IMG/VR virus record: IMGVR_UViG_3300046028_005109
Location: 1 to 21,480 of that record
DNA: 21,480 nt
Source: a virus
Strand: one strand, 5' to 3'
A program made the translations under genes and the position numbers. The notes beneath the pieces are model-generated. The model did not search any database. It worked only from the letters and a program-made list of their open reading frames with translations, and was not told the DNA's origin. Each line of letters opens with the position of its first letter. Positions within the stretch are counted from its first letter, which is position 1. Shown here piece after piece: positions 14,443-18,381 of this stretch.

Positions 14443-15315
14443 TCAAATGGGGCTGTCGTGCTCTTCGGTCTGGTTTGCCGATTGCTGGCCAGCCGTATTG
14501 GTGGTTGGCATATCAATCACACCGTCTTTATCGCTCGGCGAATCGTGCCAGTGCTGCTCATCGGCTGGCGCTGGGGCCTGTTCGGCGACCTTTTGCAGTC
14601 GGCTGGGGCGCTTGCTTGCCGACGGCGCTTCAGGGGTTTGTGCGGCCTCTGGCGCGGCCTGCTCGGGCATGAACAGCTCATCGTCCTCTTTGATCATGCC
14701 GTCGATATCGGTGGACAGCGGCAGGCGCTTGCTGTGGCGGCGCACCACGGTCTTCTTGGCCATCTCGGCAAAGTCGGTCTGCCAGGGGCCGGAGTTGCCC
14801 GAGCGGCTGCGGGCGCGGATGGCGTTGACGTCCTCAACGCTCATCACCTCGCGGGACTTTTCGCCGTCCTTCATGGTCACGATGGAATACACCGCAATCA
14901 GCTTGCCCCGGTTGGCCAGCGCCGGTTTGTGCGTGATGTGCTCCTCGTCGCCCAGGCAGAAGTCGAAGGCGTCGTTTTCGTAGACCGCCTGGACGCTCCA
15001 TGTGCTGATCTCGCCCGAGTTGCGCACCAGCTTCATGATGCCAGCGACCATCGGCATGAACTGCGCTTGGTTCTTGAAGGTGACGATGGCACCCTCGCGG
15101 CCGTCGGGCAGCAAGCCCATCTGGCTGGCCCGCATGGCCGACGCAAACAGCGTGCGGCGGTCGGCATCCAGCAGGGCCGGGGTCATTTGAACAGCGGTCA
15201 TCACCACGCGCACAAATCGCGCAGCATCAACGTGCTTTGGAAGGGCTGCCGCAAACTGCGGCGTCATGGCGGTCAGCTGGTTGCGGACCTGGTCGACAAC
15301 GGTTACTTGGGTCAT
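14443..15315 (-). CDS. recT: RecT-family single-strand annealing protein
   Basis: The 290-aa protein has the RecT core in residues 1-205: a helical start (VVDQVRNQLTAMTPQFAAAL), RFVRVVMTAVQ, then SQMGLLPDGREGAIV, FMPMVAGIMKLVRNSGE and EMAKKTVVRRHSKRLPLS. The last run is the basic end typical of the family. Residues 215-290 are an acidic, Ala/Pro-rich tail likely to bind SSB-type partners. Family members anneal complementary single strands made by a partner exonuclease, here the YqaJ gene next to it. Ribosome site CAGGAGAAAAA lies just before the ATG. The assignment is strong. Confidence 0.95.
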   Translation of the reverse strand: MTQVTVVDQVRNQLTAMTPQFAAALPKHVDAARFVRVVMTAVQMTPALLDADRRTLFASAMRASQMGLLPDGREGAIVTFKNQAQFMPMVAGIMKLVRNSGEISTWSVQAVYENDAFDFCLGDEEHITHKPALANRGKLIAVYSIVTMKDGEKSREVMSVEDVNAIRARSRSGNSGPWQTDFAEMAKKTVVRRHSKRLPLSTDIDGMIKEDDELFMPEQAAPEAAQTPEAPSASKRPSRLQKVAEQAPAPADEQHWHDSPSDKDGVIDMPTTNTAGQQSANQTEEHDSPI

Positions 15316-15403: not shown

Positions 15404-16357
15404 TCACTTCGTGGGCTTACGTGGGTTAATTCGTAAATTTCTGAAGCCTTTTCGCCCGCCGTAAGAGGTCCCCACCATGTTGGCGGTGATCAGCGTTGGC
15501 GGCGTTTCAGCCTGCATGGCGGCGCTTACCGTCCAGGCCCCGGTGAGCACCTTCTCGGCGTCTGCGATGTGCTTGAAAATCTCAGCCTTGGCCACGTCCT
15601 TGTCCTCGCCCGCATTCTTCTCGGCGGCTGCGGCGACCTTGTAGCGTTCGATCAGATCGACCAGCACATCGTCGCTGCTGGCGTCCAGCACCTTGCCTGG
15701 CTTGGCGTACTGGTTGAGCCGAATGAGCACCTCGGCGTCGCCTGGCATCACCGGGTCCGGCTCAAGGCCCGCGTCCACCGTGCGCCAGAAGTCGGCCACC
15801 TTGGCTTTGATCGCGGCGATCACCTCCTCGTCGCGCAGGCGCTCAATCACTACGCCCCGGTTGCCGCCGATGAACGCGCCGATGAATGCGCGTTTGAAAC
15901 CGGAGACGCCCATCTGGTGCTGCACCTGCATTTCGATGTGCTCGGGCGCTTCGATGCTGCTGTCGTCGTGCTCGATCCAGCCGTCGCGGAAGGCGAGGTA
16001 ATCCACGTTCTTGATCTCCAGATGCACCGGCTCGCCAAGGTTGGTGATCACGAAGTCAAACGAGCTGCCCATGCGCAGATCTGGGTCGCGCAAGTATTCC
16101 TTCATGGGCCGGATTTCCCAGCCCTGCTCCTCGGCGATGCCGTGCGCAATCGCGGCCTCCAGGCGGTTGCCCCAGGCCATGCGGTCGTTGGTCTTGAACT
16201 CGGGCACGTCGCCTGTGCGCTTGCGGTGCCAGAGGTCGAAGTGTGTGATGTAAGGGCTCATGCCAAACAGCGCCGCAGACTCGGTGCTGGTGACGTCCTT
16301 CTTGCGCAGCTCCAGCCATTGCTCTTGGCTGGCCGTGACGATGATTTCAGTTGCCAT
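15404..16357 (-). CDS. YqaJ-family phage recombination exonuclease
   Basis: The ATG at 16357 is preferred because it has an AGAGGAAC ribosome site; an upstream in-frame start lies inside the neighbour gene. The 317-aa protein shows the PD-(D/E)XK nuclease order of lambda exonuclease/YqaJ: WLELRKKDVTSTESAALFGM at 14-33, AWGNRLEAAIA with Glu67, MGSSFDF with Asp101, and HLEIKN with Glu114 and Lys116. These should bind metal and degrade one strand of duplex DNA from ends, giving substrate to RecT. Residues about 235-290 form a charged helical region. Together with RecT it forms a Red-type recombination pair. Confidence 0.93.
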   Translation of the reverse strand: MATEIIVTASQEQWLELRKKDVTSTESAALFGMSPYITHFDLWHRKRTGDVPEFKTNDRMAWGNRLEAAIAHGIAEEQGWEIRPMKEYLRDPDLRMGSSFDFVITNLGEPVHLEIKNVDYLAFRDGWIEHDDSSIEAPEHIEMQVQHQMGVSGFKRAFIGAFIGGNRGVVIERLRDEEVIAAIKAKVADFWRTVDAGLEPDPVMPGDAEVLIRLNQYAKPGKVLDASSDDVLVDLIERYKVAAAAEKNAGEDKDVAKAEIFKHIADAEKVLTGAWTVSAAMQAETPPTLITANMVGTSYGGRKGFRNLRINPRKPTK

Positions 16358-16571
16358 GGTGTTCCTCTGTTTGTGGGAGTCCGAAAATTGCAATGCCAGC
16401 CGTGTCGGGAAACCGCGCGCCGTGCGCGGCCACCAAGTTGGCGTCGATCACCTCGTTGAAGCCATCAGCCGGGGAAATCCAATAACCCTGCTCGCCGTCG
16501 TCCTGCGTGGCATGCACGATGCCCACCAGGCCTTTGCCGCTGCTAAACCACATTACGTTGTGGACTTTCAT
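16347..16571 (-). CDS. Small hypothetical protein upstream of the exonuclease
   Basis: The 74 residues are rich in small beta-type segments (MKVHNVMWFSSGKGLVGIVH, then EQGYWISPADGFNEVIDANL) and end in a His-rich tail (TEEHHGN). A strong AGGAGCG ribosome site precedes the ATG. Its 3' end overlaps the exonuclease start by 11 bases, so the two are probably coupled. The W-x-S-P and G-x-A-I-F-G-L patterns suggest a compact beta fold, perhaps a small modulator, but no family is recognised. Confidence 0.72.
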   Translation of the reverse strand: MKVHNVMWFSSGKGLVGIVHATQDDGEQGYWISPADGFNEVIDANLVAAHGARFPDTAGIAIFGLPQTEEHHGN

Positions 16572-17045: not shown

Positions 17046-17239
17046 GCCTTCACCTTTGGGATATCGCGCCATGTTCCGTTCGCGGGTTTAAAAATATCGC
17101 CGCACACCTCGTTGCCGTCCGGGTGCTCCCAAAACTGCTGGAGGATACTGACCGTGCGTGTGGTGGTGTACGTGGCGTGCTGCTCCACGACCTGTTGGCG
17201 CTCAACGAAGCGTAAGTGCAGGGTTGGAATTGGTGTCAT
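17042..17239 (-). CDS. Small hypothetical phage protein
   Basis: This is a 65-aa protein with a beta-rich pattern (LHLRFVERQQVVEQHATYTT, then TRTVSILQQFWEHPDGNEVC) and an end GTWRDIPKVKA. The elements LQQFWEHPDG and W-R-D-I-P resemble short phage proteins in which an aromatic strand is followed by a W-x-D-V/I-P motif. Start and stop both overlap neighbours (ATGA), placing it in the same tightly coupled run as the microproteins. Function is unknown. Confidence 0.75.
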   Translation of the reverse strand: MTPIPTLHLRFVERQQVVEQHATYTTTRTVSILQQFWEHPDGNEVCGDIFKPANGTWRDIPKVKA

Positions 17240-18381
17240 GCGTTCCCCCGTGCTGGAATGGCGGCAGCTCGGTTCTTGTAATCCTGCACAGGTGCTGCGG
17301 GTGGTGTGGCCGAAGCAATAAACGCCAAAGGCCTCCAGCCGTGGAAGTTTTCCACTCTGGCTGTCTTTGCTTTTGCATCAGTCAATCGACCATCTTTGTG
17401 CATCCATGCGTCAGCCACAGGCTCCTGCACAGGCTGCACAGGTGCTGCGGGTGGGGTTAGTTTCGCCAACAAATTCTTGTCAGTTTGAATTGCTTTGCAA
17501 ATGGCACGGACAATTTCTTTTTGTGAAACCGCCTTTTGTCCATTGCTTGATGCCAAATCCACGGCTCGATGCGCCACCACCATCAAGTGGCTGTGAAGGT
17601 CGCGGTGCAGTGCCACCGGATGCACAGGTGCTGGCTGTGCTGGCTGTGCTGCGGTGTAAAGCGCATCATATTTGGCATATAACTTGGCGACATCACGCAG
17701 TGCAGGCGTGTCGTAGTCTGGGTGAATGCCATCGCCTTCTTTCCAGTAACCAAGCGCTGCGGTGCTAATGCCAGCCGTCTGCAATCGGTACTGCTCAATG
17801 TCTTGCAGTACAGGCTCTTGCACAGGTGCTGGCTGTGCGGCAGGTGGTGTGGTGCTGTATTTGCGAATAGCCAAGCGCATGGAAGCAATGCCGTCGATAG
17901 TCCCGTCTGACTTTTCGACCCAACACTTTTGTAGGTCCATTTCGCTCGGCTCCTGCACAGTAGGTGCTGGCTGTGTGGGCGGGGTAGTGTAGAGCTTGGT
18001 TCCGACTGGCAGAGCTTTAAGATTTTTGAAGTCTTCTGCTGATACATGGAAACAGTTGAACTGTTCGGTTTTCAGCTTTGTCGCAACAGGCTCCTGCACA
18101 GTAGGTGCTGGCTGTGCCATCTGAAAAACCTTGATCACTTTGTCAAGCCCTAAATTCGCTTCTTTTGCTAAGGAAAGCAACTGCTTTGGTGAGATGTGTT
18201 CGGGCTGCACAGGTGCTGCAAGGGCTTGCTTGATGGCGGTGATCTCGTTGTCACGATTTTTTATCCAGCCAGCGTCTTGCTCCGGGTGTGCGCCATGAAA
18301 CGGATACTCTCCGTTGTACCCCTCCCCGCTTGCGTTAAAGCCCGCAAGGTAGGCGGCTTTCAGTGCTTCATCTTCGGTCAT
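17236..18381 (-). CDS. Modular mosaic protein with repeated QPAPVQEP linkers
   Basis: The start at 18381 follows a GAGGAG ribosome site and overlaps the upstream stop (ATGA). The 381-aa protein consists of short unrelated segments joined by near-identical linkers (QPAPVQEP, QPAPTVQEP, TPPAAPVQ). In order: a segment EDEALKAAYLAGFNASGEGY; HISPKQLLSLAKEANLGLDK; FHVSAEDFKNLKALPVGTKL; MDLQKCWVEKSDGTIDGIAS; IEQYRLQTAGISTAALGYWK leading to AKLYAKYDALYTAAQP; a helical segment with HSHLMVVAHRAVDLASS; and a final one with DAWMHKDGRLTDAKAKTARV. Several segments end in LYT-type strings before the linker. Proteins with comparable segments (for example PVGTKLYTTPP) are remembered from Burkholderiales phages, without assigned function. 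I see no catalytic motif and do not name a function. Confidence 0.85.
   Translation of the reverse strand: MTEDEALKAAYLAGFNASGEGYNGEYPFHGAHPEQDAGWIKNRDNEITAIKQALAAPVQPEHISPKQLLSLAKEANLGLDKVIKVFQMAQPAPTVQEPVATKLKTEQFNCFHVSAEDFKNLKALPVGTKLYTTPPTQPAPTVQEPSEMDLQKCWVEKSDGTIDGIASMRLAIRKYSTTPPAAQPAPVQEPVLQDIEQYRLQTAGISTAALGYWKEGDGIHPDYDTPALRDVAKLYAKYDALYTAAQPAQPAPVHPVALHRDLHSHLMVVAHRAVDLASSNGQKAVSQKEIVRAICKAIQTDKNLLAKLTPPAAPVQPVQEPVADAWMHKDGRLTDAKAKTARVENFHGWRPLAFIASATPPAAPVQDYKNRAAAIPARGNA
17285..18218 (-). repeat. Seven in-frame interspersed linker repeats inside the mosaic gene
   Basis: A core reading TGCACAGGTGCTG on the plus strand, often extended to TGCACAGGTGCTGGCTGTGC, starts at 17285, 17435, 17621, 17819, 17954, 18095 and 18206. 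The copies at 17954 and 18095 carry an extra TA-G triplet (an inserted Thr codon). The start-to-start distances are 150, 186, 198, 135, 141 and 111 bases, all divisible by three. The repeats encode the QPAPVQ linkers, so the array is coding, not CRISPR. Confidence 0.9.

Follow-up and report, generated by a model that had tools for sequence, protein, structure and literature searches.

Phage protein mosaicism is already known, as are the mosaic Ea22 and DUF551 proteins. Ea22 of lambdoid phages is encoded in the early region, near recombination genes, and is mosaic, with C-terminal domains that differ between phages (PMC7093339, PMC10834534). DUF551, present in one Ea22 variant, has been termed a portable domain (PMC10834534). 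Fragments common to otherwise unrelated phage proteins, and recent exchange between close genomes, were described for receptor-binding proteins, endolysins and replication proteins (Smug et al., 2023; PMC10684548); the word 'linker' is absent from that study. The lambda Red system recombines diverged phage DNA efficiently, and phage annealing proteins promote mosaicism (PMC2327257).

The gene analysed here is carried by a 21,480-nucleotide stretch of viral DNA (IMG/VR record IMGVR_UViG_3300046028_005109, hereafter 'the window') and consists of segments joined by linkers (hereafter 'cassette gene'). Genes of this kind belong to uncultured aquatic phages. Like Ea22, the cassette protein is mosaic, early-region and close to phage recombination genes. 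In Ea22, variation is concentrated in a single C-terminal domain, whereas cassette proteins vary in several serial segments; DNA-conserved joints are not reported for Ea22, and no coiled coil is shown for cassette proteins. Unlike the mosaicism of Smug et al., cassette genes have DNA-conserved joints and exchange serial mini-domains. A lambda Red-type system would be a plausible engine, the window encoding both RecT and YqaJ, but in that work the recombining partners were diverged whole genes, and the joints considered here are short, near-identical and inside one gene.

In exon shuffling, joints of the same phase let whole modules move without frame loss. The joints of cassette genes are likewise all in the same phase, but there are no introns and the joints are coding DNA. 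Integron cassettes also differ, as no integrase or attC-like sites were found with cassette genes. A search of open-access papers on intragenic conserved linkers in phages found nothing pertinent, and joints of this kind, conserved in their DNA inside a gene and coupled with an open pool of segments, appear undescribed.

Organisation of the cassette gene

The cassette gene (17236-18381, minus strand) was defined from its open reading frame and translation: 381 codons (381 aa), with the ATG at 18381 and the TGA at 17238-17236. Its stop codon and the start codon of the next gene overlap (ATGA), which makes it part of an operon. Within the coding sequence are seven linkers, all in frame and composed of Pro, Ala, Val and Gln, with the general form (TTPPA)(AQ)PAP(T)VQ(EP).

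All of the following features are on the minus strand. The N-terminal piece (18220-18381) ends in the constant block EITAIKQAL (AITAIKQA in the family) and has a relative in L143/L107 at 70% amino acid identity (L numbers denote loci). Linker 1 (AAPVQP, 18202-18219) precedes segment 1 (EHISPKQLLSLAKEANLGLDKVIKVFQM, 18118-18201), which recurs in L020/L043 behind a different N-terminus. Segment 2 (VATKLKTEQFNCF...LPVGTKLY, 17989-18087) lies between linker 2 (AQPAPTVQEP, 18088-18117) and linker 3 (TTPPTQPAPTVQEP, 17947-17988), and its end, PVGTKLYTTPP, is common to L053 and L066. Segment 3 (SEMDLQKCWVEKSDGTIDGIASMRLAIRKYS, 17854-17946) follows segment 2 in the window; in L015, where its DNA is 95% identical, it stands directly after the N-terminal piece. 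Linker 4 (TTPPAAQPAPVQEP, 17812-17853) is followed by segment 4 (VLQDIEQYRLQ...GYWKEGDGIHPDYDT...YDALYT, 17653-17811), copies of which, 81-91% identical in amino acids, were found in 12 loci in other contexts; it is also present in small proteins without linkers. Comparisons of segment 4 gave pS values of 0.25-0.77 against pN values of 0.02-0.08. No relative was found for segment 5 (VALHRDLHSHLMVVAHRAVDLA...LLAKL, 17458-17616), which is enclosed by linker 5 (AAQPAQPAPVHP, 17617-17652) and linker 6 (TPPAAPVQPVQEP, 17419-17457). Segment 6 (VADAWMHKDGRL...HGWRPLAFIAS, 17311-17418) is a variant of the VAW...PLY type described below. After linker 7 (ATPPAAPVQ, 17284-17310), the gene closes with a C-terminal tail (17239-17283) without the usual WVGLTDEE...EAKLKEKN end.

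The codons GCA CCT GTG specify Ala-Pro-Val in 7/7 linkers, with CAG next in 5/7 and an extra ACT after CCT in linkers 2 and 3; GCA and CCT are minor codons in the source phage (0.18 and 0.17, respectively). The gene was recoded synonymously 20,000 times with the window's own codon usage: GCA CCT GTG in all seven linkers was matched by 0/20,000 recodings, and the A-P-V-Q DNA, identical in 10/21 linker pairs, was identical in at most 6 pairs after random recoding. Elsewhere in the window, the linker core was found at one site only (12093, 3 mismatches). The seven in-frame linkers of the initial annotation are therefore real and far beyond chance. Their description as 'near-identical' holds for the A-P-V-Q core and is slightly generous for the linker ends, which vary. 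As annotated, the segments between them show no mutual similarity.

A family of cassette genes in viral contigs

Tblastn searches of cultured phages gave no useful match to the window protein, and Pfam, PHROGs and NCBIfam gave nothing significant. Whole-protein homologues with a fixed segment order were found neither in cultured phages nor in 84,980 genomes, and a degenerate linker had zero matches in the 84,980 bacterial and archaeal genomes. Single segments were encoded by 13 further viral contigs (47-91% identity), each time in a different context. For the family scan, viral contigs were searched with four scaffold peptide stretches, allowing all synonymous codons, and repeats were removed. 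The scans recovered 159 cassette genes in 139 loci, with two or three genes per locus in 17 loci. Constant blocks were set by regular expressions; gene starts are uncertain and many of the contigs are fragments.

The common gene plan is MTKDEALDLALEALE - variable - AITAIKQA(L) - APVQEPVAW - variable - PLYTTPPAAQPAPVQEPVAW - variable - PLYTTPPAAQRQWVGLTDEE - variable - AIEAKLKEKN. Two features set the gene of the window apart, its unusual number of linkers and the lack of the common C-terminal piece. Across the family, the linker was found only in clusters, on one strand and confined to cassette genes; on this distribution, a genome-wide motif such as Chi was rejected. One gene (L044:7905-8405, plus strand) starts with about 50 residues that are nearly all Ala, Tyr and Val.

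Two complete circular Manatee Spring phage records carry cassette genes with the same linker DNA (L203, MW202867.1, 2710-3294; L204, MW202484.1, 2838-3656). The family appears to have been overlooked so far: the genes are un-annotated in both complete records, and the window gene is covered by none of the models in Pfam, PHROGs and NCBIfam.

Conservation of the joints at the DNA level

The scans did not discriminate between synonymous codons, so the codons used in their matches give an unbiased view of DNA conservation. In the 31 linkers reading QPAPVQEPVAW, the first Pro was encoded by CCA in 31/31 and the second by CCT in 31/31, against background frequencies of 0.29 (CCA) and 0.24 (CCT) in other genes of the same contigs. 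Identity at 4-fold degenerate codons was compared between constant blocks and segments of the same gene pairs, with related sequences all at full weight: it was 0.931 in constant blocks versus 0.685 in segments for the 91 pairs with segment amino acid identity of 50-80%, and 0.950 versus 0.839 for the 70 pairs at 80-97%. The cassette interpretation had been set beforehand to fail if linker DNA proved no more conserved than segment DNA, and it withstood this comparison (0.93 versus 0.69).

The constant gene ends (N1, N2 and END) are as conserved in their DNA as the linkers. The linkers thus belong to a broader group of constant joints that includes the N- and C-terminal blocks, and part of the conservation comes from a recent spread of the scaffold as a whole. 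Flanking DNA gave a detectable match in only 343/3160 locus pairs (first set of loci), so linker identity is not explained by shared ancestry of whole phages.

Segment order and exchange

Among 107 homologous internal segment pairs from different loci, 98 had neither neighbour in common, 8 had one and 1 had both; the ordinal position differed in 51/107. Segment order is therefore not fixed, in agreement with the initial annotation, and homologous fragments are present in otherwise unrelated proteins (98/107 pairs), as in phage domain mosaicism. The 607 segments formed 413 clusters, 339 with a single member, and the segment pool is accordingly open. Duplication of segments inside one gene, which had also been proposed, was seen in no family member.

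Close relatives with different gene contents support the proposed swapping. In L048/L063, the flanks are 87-99% identical and inside the gene only 45 bp, the linker, is common, at 100% identity; the same pattern was found in L037/L049 and L050/L054, with shared linkers of 37 and 30 bp, respectively. L012/L013 differ only from the gene start to a linker and are 99.9% identical thereafter, and L020/L043 are 95.5% identical from a linker onward, with different modules upstream. The window's nearest relative, L032 (flanks 82-94% identical), has no segment in common with it. Two adjacent cassette genes of L032 have a stretch of 172 bp in common (98.8% identity), bounded by linkers.

Over all pairs, internal homology ended at constant blocks in 215/311 cases (69%), versus 25% by random placement, and about 31% of homology ends were inside segments. 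Homology blocks thus end in stretches identical in both parents, the pattern of strand-annealing or homologous recombination.

Segments as protein modules

Judged from their substitution patterns, the segments are real protein modules: pooled dN/dS was 0.20 (purifying selection), and some segment pairs are 97% identical although more than half of their synonymous sites differ (L068/L076, pS 0.57, pN 0.01). The commonest type, VAW...PLY, is predicted to be a beta-beta-alpha-beta mini-domain that folds alone (pLDDT 90.6), with its first and last strands adjoining the linkers; segment 4 was modelled as two helices at low confidence (pLDDT 66). A search for solved structures of the VAW module found none, and Foldseek gave no significant match in the PDB. 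The module's likeness to DUF551 is at most one of fold: the DUF551 protein of Klebsiella phage JD001 was among the Foldseek look-alikes (TMq 0.64, rmsd 1.3 over 41 columns, E 0.76). Among the matches listed for 85 members, DUF551 (PF04448) was not over the reporting threshold by sequence and Ead_Ea22 had no match at E 0.05. The resemblance to DUF551, a domain present in one Ea22 variant, suggests that cassette proteins may act in the manner of Ea22-type early proteins, with effector ends that can be exchanged.

Several genes contain pieces that resemble other proteins. A segment of L036:9101-10102 (minus strand), IGTIGHIGNGKATLTASI, is similar to the elongation factor Tu P-loop (NCBIfam E 6.5e-4; Pfam GTP_EFTU 0.0033) and is possibly a captured host fragment, going by this similarity. 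The start of the cassette gene L154:5038-5802 (plus strand) looks HNH/NUMOD4 endonuclease-like, and the gene aligns with an HNH-like ORF of L084; PF13392 was matched in 1/85 members (E 1.6e-16). The gene at L040:368-1087 (minus strand) starts with VTSKFLRHIACE and so has the same beginning as a protein of L087 that is primase-helicase-like (MTSKFLRHIACEHC), from which the start might have been borrowed. The N-terminus of a small standalone gene was also met as a cassette-gene piece. New segments may enter by illegitimate capture, for which the candidates are the HNH domain, a DnaJ-type zinc ribbon, the EF-Tu-like P-loop and the primase-like start.

Recombination genes, neighbours and host

The window encodes a RecT annealing protein (14443-15315, minus strand; PF03837, E 6.7e-44), the candidate recombinase of the source phage, and its partner, a YqaJ/RecE-like exonuclease (15404-16393, minus strand; PF09588, E 3.1e-20; phrog_434). 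RecT was found in 2/50 and ERF in 7/42 records, which are partly incomplete, so no single enzyme is general; RecT as a general partner of cassette genes was rejected (only 2/50 records). Reading of the sequences identified replication and recombination genes as neighbours (primase-helicase, DNA polymerase, SNF2 helicase, RusA, RuvC-like, HNH), and no common neighbour family was present in more than 20/139 loci.

Tyrosine integrases were found in 2/42 and serine recombinases in 0/42 records, which may be incomplete; no dedicated recombinase, as in an integron or shufflon, was thus seen. Reverse transcriptase, as in a diversity-generating retroelement, was over the cut-off in 0/42 records. With no linker match in the 84,980 bacterial and archaeal genomes and an integrase in only 2/42 of these possibly incomplete records, most cassette phages are probably not temperate, and an Ea22-like pro-lysogenic role is unlikely for most of them.

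The resemblance of the window's RecT to that of a Limnohabitans phage is a weak hint of a possible Burkholderiales host. No cassette gene was present in the stretch read of Limnohabitans phage DC33, the nearest isolate by RecT. The record of this phage (L082, PQ492659.1) says Inoviridae; given its length of 39 kb, its RecT and its terminase-like protein, it looks like a mislabelled tailed phage.

Probable assembly of cassette genes by recombination at conserved joints

From these sequence comparisons, we consider it likely that the cassette gene encodes a modular early-region protein and that homologous recombination rebuilds it at joints of conserved DNA. The protein would be a chain of 'beads', short mini-domains with Pro/Ala linkers between them, each joint being a DNA block of about 25-55 bp that is near-identical, synonymous sites included, across phages otherwise sharing little DNA. 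With all joints in the same frame, exchange or deletion of a bead would keep the frame open. Two cassette genes would meet during co-infection, which is our supposition, or within one phage carrying two or three of them, and exchange at a joint would need no more than the usual homologous or strand-annealing recombination, presumably catalysed by a phage annealing protein where present and otherwise by host recombination. The outcome would be an open bead pool under purifying selection, recombined into many proteins, and the product may be an early protein of variable, multi-domain make-up that acts on host targets. Illegitimate capture probably brings in new segments, and the joints would redistribute existing ones. 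The parts of this scheme that are supported directly are the DNA-level conservation of the joints, the recurrence of beads in new contexts, the swaps in close relatives and the ending of homology at joints.

Four other explanations were weighed against recombination at conserved joints. Plain phage mosaicism, in which a recently spread scaffold gains fragments by illegitimate recombination and the linkers are flexible spacers with no DNA-level role, agrees with the N1 and END blocks being conserved as much as the linkers and with gene fragments serving as segments or ends (the primase-like start of L040, HNH, the EF-Tu-like P-loop, the standalone-gene N-terminus). Illegitimate joins, however, would not place 69% of homology ends at constant blocks, nor leave an identical linker of 30-45 bp as the sole shared intragenic DNA in near-identical phages, and we regard this explanation as improbable. 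A binding site or RNA signal within the gene, with recombination as a by-product of its conservation, would likewise show conservation at synonymous sites, but the copy number varies and the core is limited to cassette genes and to one strand, which makes this account very unlikely.

Still smaller chances are given to the two remaining explanations. Site-specific recombination, by a recombinase that recognises the linker core and exchanges cassettes in the style of an integron or shufflon, could draw on the small dyad of the GCAC-CT-GTGC core and on the shortness and fixity of this most conserved part, from which conservation drops on both sides (in matches selected on that core). It is countered by the rarity of integrases, the lack of serine recombinases and of reverse transcriptases over the cut-off in the 42 records, the lack of a widespread neighbour family and the single orientation of all linker copies; the extra-ACT linker, moreover, breaks the spacing of the dyad and yet is present in several phages. 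The danger of assembly chimeras, in which assemblers would have joined pieces of different phages at short shared linkers so that the mosaics were not real genes, arises from the members being almost all metagenome contigs, with linkers of 45-57 bp near identity. We hold it to be small. The seven-linker gene of the window recurs with 100% identity in a second record (L002), several other genes with 2-6 linker motifs have identical copies in separate records (e.g. L030/L057, L063/L071, L019/L027/L038; L010/L086 and L015/L176 each represent a single contig and were excluded), and cassette genes are present in two complete circular records. In addition, one phage has a pair of linked segments that is found again in its adjacent genes, and a random join would not make homology resume on both sides (L012/L013).

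A stronger form of recombination at the joints is more tentative, and we think it rather less probable than not: the joints may be kept at synonymous sites because recombination as such is selected for. Phages would then maintain a dedicated prokaryotic version of exon shuffling, in which an open, shared stock of mini-domains keeps yielding new multi-domain early proteins. If recombination at the joints is right as the basic explanation, phages could build new multi-domain proteins fast and with the frame intact, and the family would offer naturally occurring mini-domains and linkers that can be combined in any order. The long-standing question of whether short homology at module borders drives phage mosaicism would then become testable inside one small gene.
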